From positions 421,942 to 485,941 of the forward strand of contig JAOAPE010000012.1 of the NCBI GenBank assembly GCA_025462725.1: a stretch of DNA of 64,000 bases, written 5' to 3'. A model generated the notes under the pieces. It was given only the letters and a program-made list of their open reading frames with translations. It was not told the DNA's origin and did no database searches. This stretch comes from Terriglobales bacterium (GTDB taxonomy: Bacteria > Acidobacteriota > Terriglobia > Terriglobales > Acidobacteriaceae). The position numbers were made by a program, and so were the translations under genes. Positions 50,140 to 54,770 of this stretch are shown piece by piece. The stretch's first letter is position 1. The number at the start of each line of letters is the position of its first letter.

Positions 50140-52677
50140 TTATGCGTTAGTCGTGGCTGGTTCAAGTTCTGCGGCGCGGGTGTAGTCACACTGGATCATT
50201 TTGGCCGGCTCTTCCGCTTCAGCCTTGCCTTTTTTCTTTCGGCGCTTGGGTTTCTCTTCTTCTTCTGAAGTCTTTTTATTGTTCGGGCACACGATCACTG
50301 TGCCTGATTTCAGAGTCTTCTCTAACAAGTAAGGACTGTCACACTGCGGACACTTTTCCGCGATGGGCTTGTAGTTGGAAGTGAATTCGCAATCCGGATA
50401 ATTCGAGCATCCGTAGAAGTAGTTTCCGCGACGTGCCTTCTTCTCCGCAATGTCTCCGTCTTTGCAATCCGGACACTTCACACCGATGTAATTCTGCTTG
50501 ATGTATTTGCATTCGGGATAGCCGCTGCAGGAGGTAAACTCGCCATATTGGCCGTGTCGTAAGACCATAGTGCGCTCGCACTTAGGGCACTTTTCCTCAA
50601 GTGGAACATCAGGTACTTTTTTGTTCTGGTCCAGGCGCCTGGTTGTGCGGCAGGTCGGATAACCGGTGCACGCTAGGAATTGGCCGAAGCGCCCGCGCTT
50701 CAGCACCATGGGCTGACCGCAGTTCTCGCACATGTCATCGAGCAGGTCTTCGTCAACGGCGAGTTCTTTGTCCGGCTTTTCCTTGGTGAAGTCGCAGCTT
50801 CCTTTTTTCTTTTTGTCGTACGAAGAGCAGGCATAGAACCAGCCGTGCCGTCCCCAGCGCTCGATCAACGGTGAGCCACAACGCTCACACATTTCGCCAG
50901 TCGGCTTCTTCATGGTCTTGATGTTGACCATGTTCTTTTCCGCGTAACTAATGTCTTTGGACAGCTTCTTATAGAAACTGGCCATCGTCTTGGTCCACTT
51001 CTCGCGGCCTTCTTCGATCTCGTCCAATTCTTCTTCCAACCCTGCGGTGTAGTTCGGGTCGAAGATATCTTCGAAGTTGTCCACCAACAACGTTGCGACG
51101 ATCTCGCCTGTTTCAGTCGGAGAGAAGCGGCGCTCGTGTTTCACAACGTATCCGCGTTCTTGGATGGAACTAATGATGGCTGCGTAAGTGGAGGGACGTC
51201 CTACTCCGCGCTCTTCCAACTCTTTCACCAGCGACGCTTCGTTGTATCGCGGGGGAGGCTCAGTGAAATGCTGTTCAGGCTTGAGCACTTCCAACTTCAG
51301 CGCGTCTCCGGTCTCGACCGGCGGAAGCTTGTGCTCCAGCGCTTCATCGTCTTCATCCTTCGATTCTTTAGTTTCCTCATAGACCTTTAGGAAACCGGCG
51401 AACTTCATGATCGAGCCCGTCGCGCGGAACTGGTATGTATCTTTGTCAGCCTTCGCGTCAATCTCAATGGTTGTGCGATCGAAGATTGCGGGCATCATCT
51501 GCGACGCCACGAACCGCTGCCAAATCAACTTGTAAACTTTGTATTCGTTCGGCTGAAGATATTGGCGGACACTCTCAGGATCCTTCTCGACCGAAGTAGG
51601 ACGAATCGCTTCGTGTGCATCCTGCGTGTCTTTTTTCGACTTGAAGGTGTTCGGCGACTCTGGCAAGAACTCTTTTCCGTACTCTTTGCCGATGTGCTCG
51701 CGGACCTCGTCTAGCGCTTCTTTTCCAACGCGCGTCGAATCCGTACGCATATAAGTGATGAGACCGACAGAACCTTCGTCGCCGAGTTCCACGCCCATAT
51801 AAAGTTTCTGAGCGATACCCATTGCTACCTTTACAGGCAGACTGAGTTTGCGTGACGCATCCTGCTGGAATTTGCTGGTAGTGAAAGGCGGCACAGGACG
51901 ACGCTGCTGCTCGCGCTTTTCAACATTGCTGACGCGCCAATCGGCCTTCTCGAGAGCAGAAGTAATCGCCGTCGCAGAGGCTTCATCACCGATCTGCAGC
52001 TTGTCGTATTTATCGCCGTTCTTGCCTGAGAATGCCGCATCGAAAACAGGCGGAGTCTTCCCAGCCAGCGCTGCGTCAATGCTCCAATATTCTTGCTTCG
52101 TAAATGCGCGGATCTCACGCTCGCGCTCCACGATGAATCGCAGGGCAACAGTCTGGACACGGCCAGCGGAAAGCCCACGCTTTACTTTGTCCCAAAGCAG
52201 CGGAGAGATCTTGTATCCCACCAACCGATCGAGAACGCGGCGCGCCTGCTGCGCGTCTACCAGGTTCCAGTCAATACCGCGGGCATGCTCGAATGCTTCC
52301 TTCACCGCGCGCTGCGTGATCTCGTTGAACGTGACTCGATATACCGGTATAGCCAGCTTCTTTTTGCTGTCGCGGGTCACGCCAAACTCTTCCGCCAAGT
52401 GCGCAGCGATGGCCTCACCTTCACGGTCAGGATCAGGCGCAAGGTACACGGCGACAGCCTTGGCGGCCATCTTCTTCAGCTTGGCCATCACTTTTTCTTT
52501 GCCTGGGATGATGGCCAGTTCGGTGGCAAAGTCGTTGTCCACGTCAACGGAGAGACCGCTCTTAGGCAGGTCTTTGACGTGTCCGAGTGAGGCTTCAACC
52601 TCAAACTCTTTGCCGAGATATTTGTTGATCGTCTTGGCTTTCGCCGGCGATTCAACGATGACTAATGATTTTGCCAA
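50140..52677 (-). CDS. topA: DNA topoisomerase I
   Basis: Type IA topoisomerase that relaxes negative supercoils. The 845-aa protein has the Toprim domain (SLVIVESPAKAKTINKYLG, then DPDREGEAIAAHL near residue 83), the active Tyr309 in LITYMRTDSTRV, the GLSAGRVQTVAL segment, and a long C-terminal tail with five Cys4-type zinc modules (CERCGSPL, CENCGQPM, CPKCERTM, CPDCKDG, CPQCDSPY). A basic low-complexity tail (PKRRKKKGKAEAEE) follows. Length and domain order are normal. Confidence 0.97.
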   Translation of the reverse strand: MAKSLVIVESPAKAKTINKYLGKEFEVEASLGHVKDLPKSGLSVDVDNDFATELAIIPGKEKVMAKLKKMAAKAVAVYLAPDPDREGEAIAAHLAEEFGVTRDSKKKLAIPVYRVTFNEITQRAVKEAFEHARGIDWNLVDAQQARRVLDRLVGYKISPLLWDKVKRGLSAGRVQTVALRFIVEREREIRAFTKQEYWSIDAALAGKTPPVFDAAFSGKNGDKYDKLQIGDEASATAITSALEKADWRVSNVEKREQQRRPVPPFTTSKFQQDASRKLSLPVKVAMGIAQKLYMGVELGDEGSVGLITYMRTDSTRVGKEALDEVREHIGKEYGKEFLPESPNTFKSKKDTQDAHEAIRPTSVEKDPESVRQYLQPNEYKVYKLIWQRFVASQMMPAIFDRTTIEIDAKADKDTYQFRATGSIMKFAGFLKVYEETKESKDEDDEALEHKLPPVETGDALKLEVLKPEQHFTEPPPRYNEASLVKELEERGVGRPSTYAAIISSIQERGYVVKHERRFSPTETGEIVATLLVDNFEDIFDPNYTAGLEEELDEIEEGREKWTKTMASFYKKLSKDISYAEKNMVNIKTMKKPTGEMCERCGSPLIERWGRHGWFYACSSYDKKKKGSCDFTKEKPDKELAVDEDLLDDMCENCGQPMVLKRGRFGQFLACTGYPTCRTTRRLDQNKKVPDVPLEEKCPKCERTMVLRHGQYGEFTSCSGYPECKYIKQNYIGVKCPDCKDGDIAEKKARRGNYFYGCSNYPDCEFTSNYKPIAEKCPQCDSPYLLEKTLKSGTVIVCPNNKKTSEEEEKPKRRKKKGKAEAEEPAKMIQCDYTRAAELEPATTNA

Positions 52678-52744: not shown

Positions 52745-52779
52745 CAAGCTTCTAGCTCTTAGCCTTTAGCTCTTAGCTT
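52745..52779 (-). repeat. Heptad tandem repeat, left arm
   Basis: Read on the minus strand, units of (A/G)(A/G)GCTAA repeat about five times (first 3 exact, then decaying). The 26 bp at 52754-52779 are the reverse complement of 53222-53247 with one mismatch. The repeat encodes the last residues (LKLRAKG) and stop of the four-helix-bundle gene. Confidence 0.85.
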
Positions 52780-53148
52780 AAGGCCTGCATTCTTCGCGAT
52801 TCCGATGGTTGAGGAGAGCGAACTTAGCATCTTTCTGATCTCAGTCAGCTCCGAAGCAAGGGAGCTGTGCTTTTCAACCTGTATCAATTTCAAGTCGCGA
52901 GCAAGCAAGAGGTGGTACTCAAGCTCACTCGCAGATCCCATTGCGATCTGAACAAACCTTGCCATCTCGCCATCGCCTTTGCGGCCGCAACCCTCCGCAA
53001 GATTTGCTCCGATCGACGCCGCGGCTCGTCTCATCTGGCTGGTTAAACCAAACAGCTCTTCTCTTGGAAACGTCTGCGTTGCTGAATACAGTGACAAAGT
53101 TAATTGATGGGCTCTGTCCCAAACTTTCAAATCTTTGAAGTCCCGCAT
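52759..53148 (-). CDS. Four-helix-bundle protein (23S rRNA intervening-sequence / Avd-like family)
   Basis: A 129-aa helical protein. The family pattern is plain: FKDLKVWDRAHQLTLSLYSAT, FPREELFGLTSQMRRAAASIGANLAEGCGRK, and ELEYHLLLARDL. Such proteins are encoded in 23S rRNA insertions and, in a related branch, beside diversity-generating retroelements, but no rRNA or reverse transcriptase is near. The gene is enclosed by inverted heptad repeats 442 bp apart, and its stop codon is supplied by the left repeat. ATG 53148. Probably a mobile or degenerate element passenger; function unknown. Confidence 0.9.
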   Translation of the reverse strand: MRDFKDLKVWDRAHQLTLSLYSATQTFPREELFGLTSQMRRAAASIGANLAEGCGRKGDGEMARFVQIAMGSASELEYHLLLARDLKLIQVEKHSSLASELTEIRKMLSSLSSTIGIAKNAGLKLRAKG

Positions 53149-53207
53149 CTCTCACCTTTTCAGTTAATCATGCCGCTTAGAACTACAAGCGTGGACATCT
53201 TGGGCCT

Positions 53208-53247
53208 GAGCTAAAAGCTAAAAGCTAAGAGCTAAAGGCTAAAAGCT
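53208..53247 (+). repeat. Heptad tandem repeat, right arm
   Basis: Five full heptads (A/G)(A/G)GCTAA plus five bases, 53208-53247. The arm is inverted relative to 52745-52779. Its minus strand supplies the final Ser-Phe-stop of dprA (53239). Confidence 0.85.
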
Positions 53248-54420
53248 CCTCACGAAATTCTTCCCCGGCAATTGCTTGATCTTGCCGGACATTTCCAGTT
53301 CAAATAATGCCGCGAATATTTCTGAAGAAGAGACGTCGCCATCGAGCTTGTCAATGATCTCGTCTATCTGAAGCGCTTCGTCCTGCTTCAGAGTCCTGAG
53401 GACCTTCTTCTCTTGTGGGGAGAACTGTTCGTCTCCAAATAGAGATGCAGTAGGGGTCGATTCGGTCGCACGGACCCAGTTCGCCTCCAGTTGGATCTTG
53501 ACCTGCGTCGGCAGTTCTTCCCAAATGTCTTCCCACGTCGCAACTAGCTTGGCGCCCTGTTTTATCAACGTGTTGGGGCCCCAGGAATTCTTGTTTGTAA
53601 CGTTTCCCGGGACAGCGTAAACGTCCCTAGATTGCTCCAGCGCACAACGAGCCGTAATGCGTGTGCCACTGTATTCGCCCGCTTCCACCACCAGCACCCC
53701 TATCGACATTCCGCTGATAATCCTGTTGCGGATGGGGAAATTCTGCGGCGCTGCAAAAGTTCCGATCGCGAACTCACTCACCACCGCCCCGCCAGTTGCC
53801 ACGATCTGCTCCGCCAGCTTCTTGTTCTCTCGCGGATACACCACATCCACGCCCGTTCCCCAGATCGCAATCGTCTTCCCCTGCGCCTCGATCGCACCTT
53901 TATGTGCCTGCGTGTCCACTCCGCGGGCCATGCCGCTGATGATCGTCAGACCCCGTGACGCCATATCCGCCGATAGCCGCTGCGACATCCCAATCCCATA
54001 CGGCGTGGGATGCCGCGTTCCCACAACCGCAATCCCCGGCTGCGTCAAAAGGCTTGCGTCGCCACGTACATATAAAACGAGCGGCGGATCGTAAATGTTA
54101 CGCAGCGTCTCCGGATAGAGATCGTCGTCCAGGCTGACGATCTCCGCTCCTGCCGAGACTGCCCGGATCAATTCCTCTTCCGCCAGCGTTGACGATTTGC
54201 CAAGAGCGATCGATTGCGCCGATTCAGCCCTGATGCCAGCGGCTTCCAATTCCGTCAACGATGCGCGGAACACTTTTTCGACGTCACCGAAATGCTGGAC
54301 TAATCGGCGTGCTTTGGCCGCGCCGAGTCCAGGCGTCATGGCCAGCGCCAGCCAGTGATTTCGACGCATACTGCTAGAAGGCTTTACTGCTGCAGCCGCA
54401 GCTGAGTTTTCGCTTGTCAT
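53239..54420 (-). CDS. dprA: DNA processing protein DprA
   Basis: Loads RecA on incoming single-stranded DNA in natural transformation. The 393-aa protein has an N-terminal SAM/HhH-like part (LALAMTPGLGAAKARRLVQHFG), a Rossmann core with GIAVVGTRHPTPYG, TIISGMARGVDTQAHKGAI, GTGVDVVYPRENKKL, PIRNRIISGMS and YAVPGNVTNKNSWGPNTLIKQGA, and a C-terminal winged helix (EKKVLRTLKQDEALQIDEIIDKL). Its last codons and TAG lie in the heptad repeat. Start ATG 54420. Confidence 0.96.
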   Translation of the reverse strand: MTSENSAAAAAVKPSSSMRRNHWLALAMTPGLGAAKARRLVQHFGDVEKVFRASLTELEAAGIRAESAQSIALGKSSTLAEEELIRAVSAGAEIVSLDDDLYPETLRNIYDPPLVLYVRGDASLLTQPGIAVVGTRHPTPYGIGMSQRLSADMASRGLTIISGMARGVDTQAHKGAIEAQGKTIAIWGTGVDVVYPRENKKLAEQIVATGGAVVSEFAIGTFAAPQNFPIRNRIISGMSIGVLVVEAGEYSGTRITARCALEQSRDVYAVPGNVTNKNSWGPNTLIKQGAKLVATWEDIWEELPTQVKIQLEANWVRATESTPTASLFGDEQFSPQEKKVLRTLKQDEALQIDEIIDKLDGDVSSSEIFAALFELEMSGKIKQLPGKNFVRSF

Positions 54421-54492: not shown

Positions 54493-54527
54493 AGCTGTCA
54501 GCCATCAGCTGTCAGCCGTCAGCTCTA
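54493..54527. repeat. AGC-based heptad tandem repeat
   Basis: Five 7-bp units starting AGC (AGCTGTC, AGCCATC, AGCTGTC, AGCCGTC, AGCTCTA) in the 350-bp dprA-mqnA gap. The heptad period matches the repeats around the four-helix gene. Confidence 0.75.
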
Positions 54528-54625: not shown

Positions 54626-54674
54626 TACGAGTGTCAAAATTCCAATCGCCAGCGGCGCGACACTGGTTTGCCGA

Positions 54675-54702
54675 AAGCTGACAGCTAAAAGCCGACAAGT
54701 AA
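54675..54702. repeat. Heptad repeat, inverted relative to 54493-54527
   Basis: AAGCTGA, CAGCTAA, AAGCCGA, CAAGTAA. Together with 54493-54527 it flanks the REP-like hairpins in opposite orientation. Confidence 0.6.
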
Positions 54703-54737: not shown

Positions 54738-54765
54738 GAGAAACGAGAAACGGGAAACCAGAAAC
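54738..54765 (+). repeat. Four GAGAAAC-type heptads upstream of mqnA
   Basis: GAGAAAC, GAGAAAC, GGGAAAC, CAGAAAC in perfect register, ending five bases before the mqnA ATG (54771) and covering the ribosome-binding position. No better ribosome site is present, so a GGGAAAC unit may serve. Confidence 0.8.
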
Positions 54766-54770
54766 CGCTC

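Follow-up and report, generated by a model that had tools for sequence, protein, structure and literature searches.

A four-helix-bundle gene between inverted heptad arrays: a small, probably mobile element whose protein may recognize its own ends

How did a small four-helix-bundle gene come to lie between dprA and topA in a Terriglobales genome, enclosed by inverted arrays of a 7-nt repeat that overlap stop codons? The original prediction suggested that a repeat-bounded unit had been inserted between the two host genes, with the four-helix gene as its passenger. We examined this locus within the window (the whole 64-kb stretch of DNA analysed here), together with related loci elsewhere. The features that matter are as follows.

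50140–52677, minus strand: topA, the host gene that follows the unit when read in the sense direction
52747–52785, no strand: left arm, an inverted heptad array of AGCTNNN units, giving the four-helix gene its last residues and stop
52759–53148, minus strand: four-helix-bundle gene, PF05635/TIGR02436 (IVP, S23p), 129 aa
53202–53247, no strand: right arm, an array of inverted heptads that covers the stop codon of dprA
53239–54420, minus strand: dprA, the host gene that precedes the unit when read in the sense direction, with the native end VRSF*

Alignment confirmed the predicted arms at 52754–52779 and 53222–53247, which are 26 nt long and 96 per cent complementary, with one mismatch. A longer alignment pairs 52747–52785 with 53202–53240 (39 nt, 82 per cent). 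When all 26-mers in the window were scanned for an inverted copy within 1 kb (at most one mismatch), this arm pair alone was found. Its heptad units read (A/G)GCTNNN, and the complementary ends enclose the S23p ORF. As predicted, the C-terminus of that ORF (...LKLRAKG*) and its stop codon (TAA, 52759–52761) fall inside the left arm, and the dprA stop codon (TAG, 53239–53241) falls inside the right. An Rfam search (E ≤ 1) gave one weak miRNA match.

The window protein scores 130.3 bits against the PF05635 profile (cut-off 33.8) and 125.9 against TIGR02436 (cut-off 24). Otherwise the Pfam and NCBIfam profiles gave weak Avd matches only, and no nuclease or transposase domain. Its solved relatives, 2gsc and 2rld, each list five chains (A–E), and the title of the 2gsc paper reportedly speaks of five four-helix bundles. 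An AF2 model of the protein (mean pLDDT 94.5) has four helices. Foldseek ranked 2gsc and 2rld first, then bAvd (4dwl) and the ribonucleoproteins of diversity-generating retroelements (DGRs); the match to 2gsc_B (TM 0.87 by query length) places the model in a four-helix fold like that of 2gsc. One same-site gene pair shows purifying selection (dN 0.07, dS 1.0).

Three PF05635 matches are present in this genome; each is enclosed by inverted heptad arrays and flanked by a pair of co-directional genes. The unit differs per copy: AGCTAAA-type between dprA and topA, AGTTTCA/G between trpE and trpG, and AGTTTCT between sdhA and sdhB (we take the last four to be these genes from their ORFs). The other two proteins share 35 and 43 per cent identity with the window protein. 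Since these copies have diverged, no recent jump within this genome is seen. The original prediction had suggested looking for further copies of the gene with its arms; none was found elsewhere in this genome, where the arms alone match other places.

At all three sites, the unit is absent in some same-genus genomes (for trp and sdh, those readable at these sites). The dprA–topA site is empty in two of them (L013 and L014, with dprA 93 per cent identical), and topA begins about 80 bp past dprA. Gene and repeats are thus not conserved here in all relatives, and the idea of a repeat-bounded unit inserted between topA and dprA holds. trpE and trpG abut without a unit in three same-genus genomes (L164–L166), and sdhA and sdhB lie close together in two same-genus genomes (L180 and L181) and in two genomes of other genera (L182 and L183).

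The original prediction also saw the repeats as a way to replace native C-termini. For dprA this was ruled out: both empty sites end VRSF*, like the window dprA, so this C-terminus is native. The proposal fares better at the filled trpE–trpG site, where the array gives trpE a new stop (ARG* vs ARQA* in L164 and L165), and on an Aulosira plasmid, where the gene upstream of the insertion is left with a shorter C-terminus.

Other relatives carry IVP genes with different units at the dprA site. These include two same-genus genomes in which dprA is not beside topA (L015 and L016) and genomes of four other genera (L017, L020, L040, and L242). There are also three remnants, one found by tblastn (L024) and two by eye (L021 and L022). 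In a quick tree, built with L024 left out, all six dprA-linked genes fall in a set of 27 rows, together with 21 copies that come from other loci or repeat the same ones. The dprA site may have been hit repeatedly, or an old copy may have been kept while its arms turned over. Two same-site copies elsewhere (L151 and L154) have, by eye, near-identical 5′ halves and differing 3′ halves, and one half of the unit looks as if it had been exchanged. Beside trpE in another genome (G010, L168), AGTGGTC-type arrays enclose other sequence in place of an IVP gene; trpG there has the opposite orientation to trpE.

We assessed arms around other PF05635 genes by aligning each upstream flank with the reverse complement of the downstream flank. 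Both gene sets are the best matches listed by the search, and are non-random samples. Among the best matches in the host family, 27 of 32 genes had arms scoring at least 30, compared with 10 of 300 cross-locus control pairs and 0 of 96 shifted pairs. Among the best matches from many phyla, 48 of 79 loci scored at least 30 (controls: 12/500 cross, 0/245 shifted) and 59 of 79 at least 26 (controls: 18/500 cross, 4/245 shifted). The family loci include the window copy and L059, which is cut by a contig end; the many-phyla set has eighty loci, of which L147 (short flank) was left out of the test. Four loci (L021, L022, L157, and L168) had no gene match. The shifted and cross-locus controls, together with the scan of the window, rule out a chance origin of the arms. 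When loci were pooled (130, including two repeats), 106 reached a score of 26, and their best period was 7 in eighty-two, 8 in eleven, 9 in seven, and another value in six. The repeats, L159 and L161, duplicate L015 and L016; they stand in this period tally and were dropped from the co-variation analysis onward.

The mean repeat unit is roughly AG-Y-N-N-Y-Y, and its variation follows that of the protein. Unit similarity climbs with protein identity (r = 0.254, 80 loci), and none of 5,000 permutations gave a value as high. The same was true (0/5,000 each time) without same-site orthologues (0.239, 76 loci), within the host family (0.262, 35 loci), and outside it (0.381, 41 loci). Simple joint descent of gene and arms would by itself produce part of this correlation. 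The gene's supposed role as passenger is doubtful, because the unit follows protein relatedness.

Unit number is also regular. The median arm is 4.43 units (31 nt) long on either side of the gene (n = 80), and single arrays have the same median (n = 86). Counting units as RG anchors at unit spacing, five is the commonest number in period-7 arms (left 32/80, right 30/80), in period-8 arms (4/11 and 6/11), and in single arrays (35/92); shuffled flanks mostly have two or three. With inward defined as YAG in the upstream arm, read on the sense strand, units point inward at 61 of 80 loci and outward at nine, with ten tied. One arm resembled an in-order copy of the other above the 95th percentile at only 7 of 80 loci, in a test that is conservative because the unit model was derived from the same arms.

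Armed loci have a marked position in operons. The upstream gene is co-directional in eighty-eight cases and not in ten (p = 1e-16), and among same-strand gene pairs around these loci the split is 63 to 5. In 81 of 88 cases the start of the upstream arm falls in the interval from 18 nt ahead of the stop codon to 27 nt past it, so the protein can come from the transcript of the host operon. TAG stops are enriched upstream (43/88, compared with 553/1708 among mechanical ORFs 300 aa or longer; p = 0.002). As RNA, the window element folds with its arms paired (z = -4.9), and none of 100 shuffles was as stable. On two cyanobacterial plasmids (L345 and L350) the four-helix gene sits inside a CRISPR operon, in the orders cas6-IVP-cas4 and cas10-IVP-cmr3, and PCC 7002 lacks the unit at the cas10-cmr3 site. 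The family is listed in a figure legend of a CRISPR-association survey, and these two operons may explain that listing.

Plasmids offer filled and empty sites for comparison. Thirty plasmid records matched, twenty-four of them cyanobacterial, and no phage record did. Arms scored at least 29 in 13 of 14 plasmid copies examined, L361 scoring 20. Plasmid C of Trichormus variabilis ATCC 29413 carries a unit that is absent from three plasmids 97.7–98.1 per cent identical to it, and the junctions indicate an exact insertion with a 5-bp duplication, GTAAT; the upstream stop lies within this duplication (the aligner reports an overlap of 8 with one mismatch, of which 5 are exact). In Nostoc ATCC 53789, comparison of pNsp_a with p057_H of strain C057 (88.5 per cent identical) gives the duplication TTCTA; against three other empty plasmids the junctions at this site either overlap by 10, with mismatches, or leave a gap of 7. 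Clean 5-bp duplications were thus read at two of seven filled plasmid sites, and not at the window site. The other five (Azospirillum, pNsp_c, PCC 7003, Aulosira, and Calothrix) show gaps instead. The T. variabilis site holds a gene-less pair in Brasilonema and a 3′-deleted remnant in Nostoc C052. The most direct evidence that arms and gene move as a unit is homology among L348, L347, and L363: these elements occupy three different plasmid sites and are 78–83 per cent identical over 416–419 bp, with the homology confined to the element and stopping at the arms. That arms and gene are mobile together is well supported.

Arrays also occur away from any IVP gene. Across fifteen genomes of the host family, which are relatives and of which twelve were sampled over 100 kb only, the density of such period-7 arrays rises with the number of IVP copies per Mb (Spearman 0.83, p = 1.3e-4). 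No array occurred in 400 kb of one complete genome that lacks IVP, and three others lacking it had one in 300 kb, the family genome G049 having a period-7 array in its 100 kb. The window's own genome has 20 per Mb, and the two richest have 88 and 90. These single arrays show no strand bias (10, 10, 9, and 7 in four neighbour classes, with nineteen ambiguous and eight at edges). Sampled stretches and two loci matching the window arms yielded fifteen inverted pairs, eleven of them gene-less with loops of 15–129 nt; of the other four, two belong to a single IVP unit and the remaining two are wider. The own genome has gene-less inverted pairs of the repeat at L002 and L004.

Upstream of dprA, the window itself holds a second inverted pair of AGCTGNN-like heptads (54496–54523 and 54670–54697; 28 nt, 75 per cent complementary) with 146 nt and no recognized gene between, which looks like a gene-less relative of the window element. 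Nearby at 54740–54767 is a single array that reads, by eye, GAAACGA GAAACGG GAAACCA GAAACCG. This is the AGTTTC type, as in the other two units of this genome.

Similar arms surround a second gene family. PF13366 genes (GxxExxY, PDDEXK_3) from the same host family had arms scoring at least 30 at 24 of 30 loci (L315–L344; three short loci, L327, L329, and L330, count as misses), compared with 0 of 120 shifted pairs. Their GAG anchors are mostly 8–9 nt apart, and the upstream gene is co-directional in twenty-one cases and not in three. The arrays are therefore not peculiar to IVP. Across sixty genomes, co-occurrence of PF13366 and IVP was not significant (29/45 vs 5/15, p = 0.07).

The window copy lies between protein genes and not, like a 23S rRNA intervening sequence, within a 23S rRNA gene. 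On Azospirillum lipoferum 4B plasmid p2, in what we take from the sequence to be a 23S gene, a unit with heptad arms replaces a 19-nt loop present in the p3 copy, and the flanks are 100 per cent identical. This case came from plasmids; a search with four 23S motifs near 131 IVP loci gave no match.

Taken together, we think it reasonably probable that the window holds a mobile element whose protein, itself probably pentameric, recognizes its own heptad ends. The element is about 0.4–0.5 kb long, with a single gene for an Avd-like four-helix protein (IVP/S23p), and is bounded by a pair of arrays that face inward, each with about five short units, mostly of 7 nt and YAGNNNN-like. It lies at or just past the stop codon of a co-directional gene. 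The protein most likely reads the array, each subunit taking one unit, and would thereby mark where its own element ends; this would account for the joint change of unit and protein. Recognition of its own ends is, we infer, the best reading of the co-variation and unit number: the protein would bind the arrays, five units would match five subunits, and the protein would take part in movement. Gene-less inverted pairs and single arrays would be derivatives or remnants, and the 23S intervening sequence the same element in a special target. Several observations weigh against this reading: the protein matches no nuclease or transposase domain, the three copies of this genome have diverged, clean duplications came from two of seven filled plasmid sites, arms were not shown to copy each other in order, single arrays have no strand bias, G049 has an array but no IVP, and PF13366 genes have similar arms.

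The same observations could be read in other ways. The unit could be mobile with the four-helix gene as cargo, moved like a MITE by an enzyme encoded elsewhere that acts on array-bounded DNA, while IVP does something else. We consider this rather unlikely. The protein does lack a catalytic domain match, inverted pairs without the gene recur throughout the samples (one, L357, at the same plasmid site), and PF13366 units have similar arms; against it, unit type tracks IVP relatedness, array density tracks IVP copy number, and five anchors recur in arms and single arrays alike. These last results also bear on a role in RNA alone, with the arms forming a stem for RNase III excision from operon transcripts and the repeats a by-product of slippage and selection for pairing. 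The stable fold of the window element and the sense orientation (88 to 10) fit such a role, as does the excision reported for Coxiella (PMC4990558), but it accounts neither for single arrays in proportion to copy number nor for unit–protein co-variation and a constant unit number. As a full explanation we find it improbable, and action of the arms in RNA may well be true in addition to mobility.

Very improbable, in our judgement, is that the arrays are pre-existing, slippage-prone host repeats in or between which IVP-like genes land. Xanthomonas and Nostoc do have arrays near stops that carry no mobile-element link in the part of PMC4692102 consulted. Sequenced empty sites, however, lack arrays (excepting L013 and one remnant), the complete genome without IVP had none in its 400 kb, and homology between copies stops at the arms.

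A wider version can be offered tentatively, as something we would not yet favour. PF05635 could be a new end-recognition or transposition protein whose pentamer reads five units per end, each lineage with its own unit, and the source of 23S intervening sequences, of many heptad arrays (cyanobacterial, Xanthomonas, and Acidobacteria-type), and of hairpins; PF13366 nucleases could be a sister system with 8–9-nt units. Neither PF05635 nor GxxExxY proteins, both of them common, have an assigned function, and no maker is known for intergenic heptad arrays. A link between the gene, its arrays, the empty sites, and 23S intervening sequences offers a single cause that can be tested; it also draws attention to a mobile element with a protein unlike any known transposase.

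Several known systems invite comparison. A MITE has short inverted ends and a target duplication of fixed length; here, 5-bp duplications were read at two of seven plasmid sites. TRAP is an RNA-binding ring that reads spaced triplets, and the proposed reading of one unit per subunit by a five-subunit protein may be compared with it. Avd of DGRs has a similar fold (4dwl and DGR ribonucleoprotein chains in Foldseek), and the window protein has a weak bAvd profile match; unlike Avd, it falls under both curated cut-offs (21.9 of 40 bits and 29.4 of 80 bits), and its gene is flanked by topA and dprA.

REPINs and RAYTs, as described in PMC3116915, likewise involve diverged genes of low copy number, each associated with a repeat flavour of its own. 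Gene-less inverted pairs are scattered through the genome there too, and gene and repeat are believed to co-evolve. RAYTs, however, are tyrosine (Y1/HUH) transposases, whereas the window protein has no transposase match and no known catalytic domain, and REPs are palindromes rather than tandem 7-nt units.

Xanthomonas arrays have 7-nt units, mostly four and often under 50 bp from stop codons, with 70 and 75 inverted pairs in two genomes (PMC4692102), and the Beggiatoaceae TAACTGA repeats are also 7 nt (PMC4679880). The roles proposed for the Xanthomonas/Nostoc and Beggiatoaceae arrays differ from ours, being G-quadruplexes or regulation. For a link to IVP, ‘S23’ has 0 occurrences in the accessible text of PMC4679880 and ‘xcc0516’ has 0 in that of PMC4692102; a general link of PF05635 genes to flanking arrays was not found in the open-licence literature as far as it was covered. 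These arrays may stem from IVP elements. Xanthomonas heptad regions are reported as more stable than controls between two species (PMC4692102), which speaks against frequent movement there.

The closest counterpart is the Coxiella 23S intervening sequence. As reported in PMC4990558, it has one PF05635 ORF in about 0.43 kb, complementary ends that form a stem of 28 bp, and GACAGAT heptads ahead of the ORF; it is excised by RNase III and suspected to be selfish or mobile. The same source infers that the S23p protein is probably not produced, and this argues against the protein having a role there today. The Coxiella sequence lies in rRNA, unlike the window unit between protein genes, and its heptads are tied in that paper to one insert in one species. 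The loci studied here add arrays at both ends, co-variation with the protein, and a spread over phyla.
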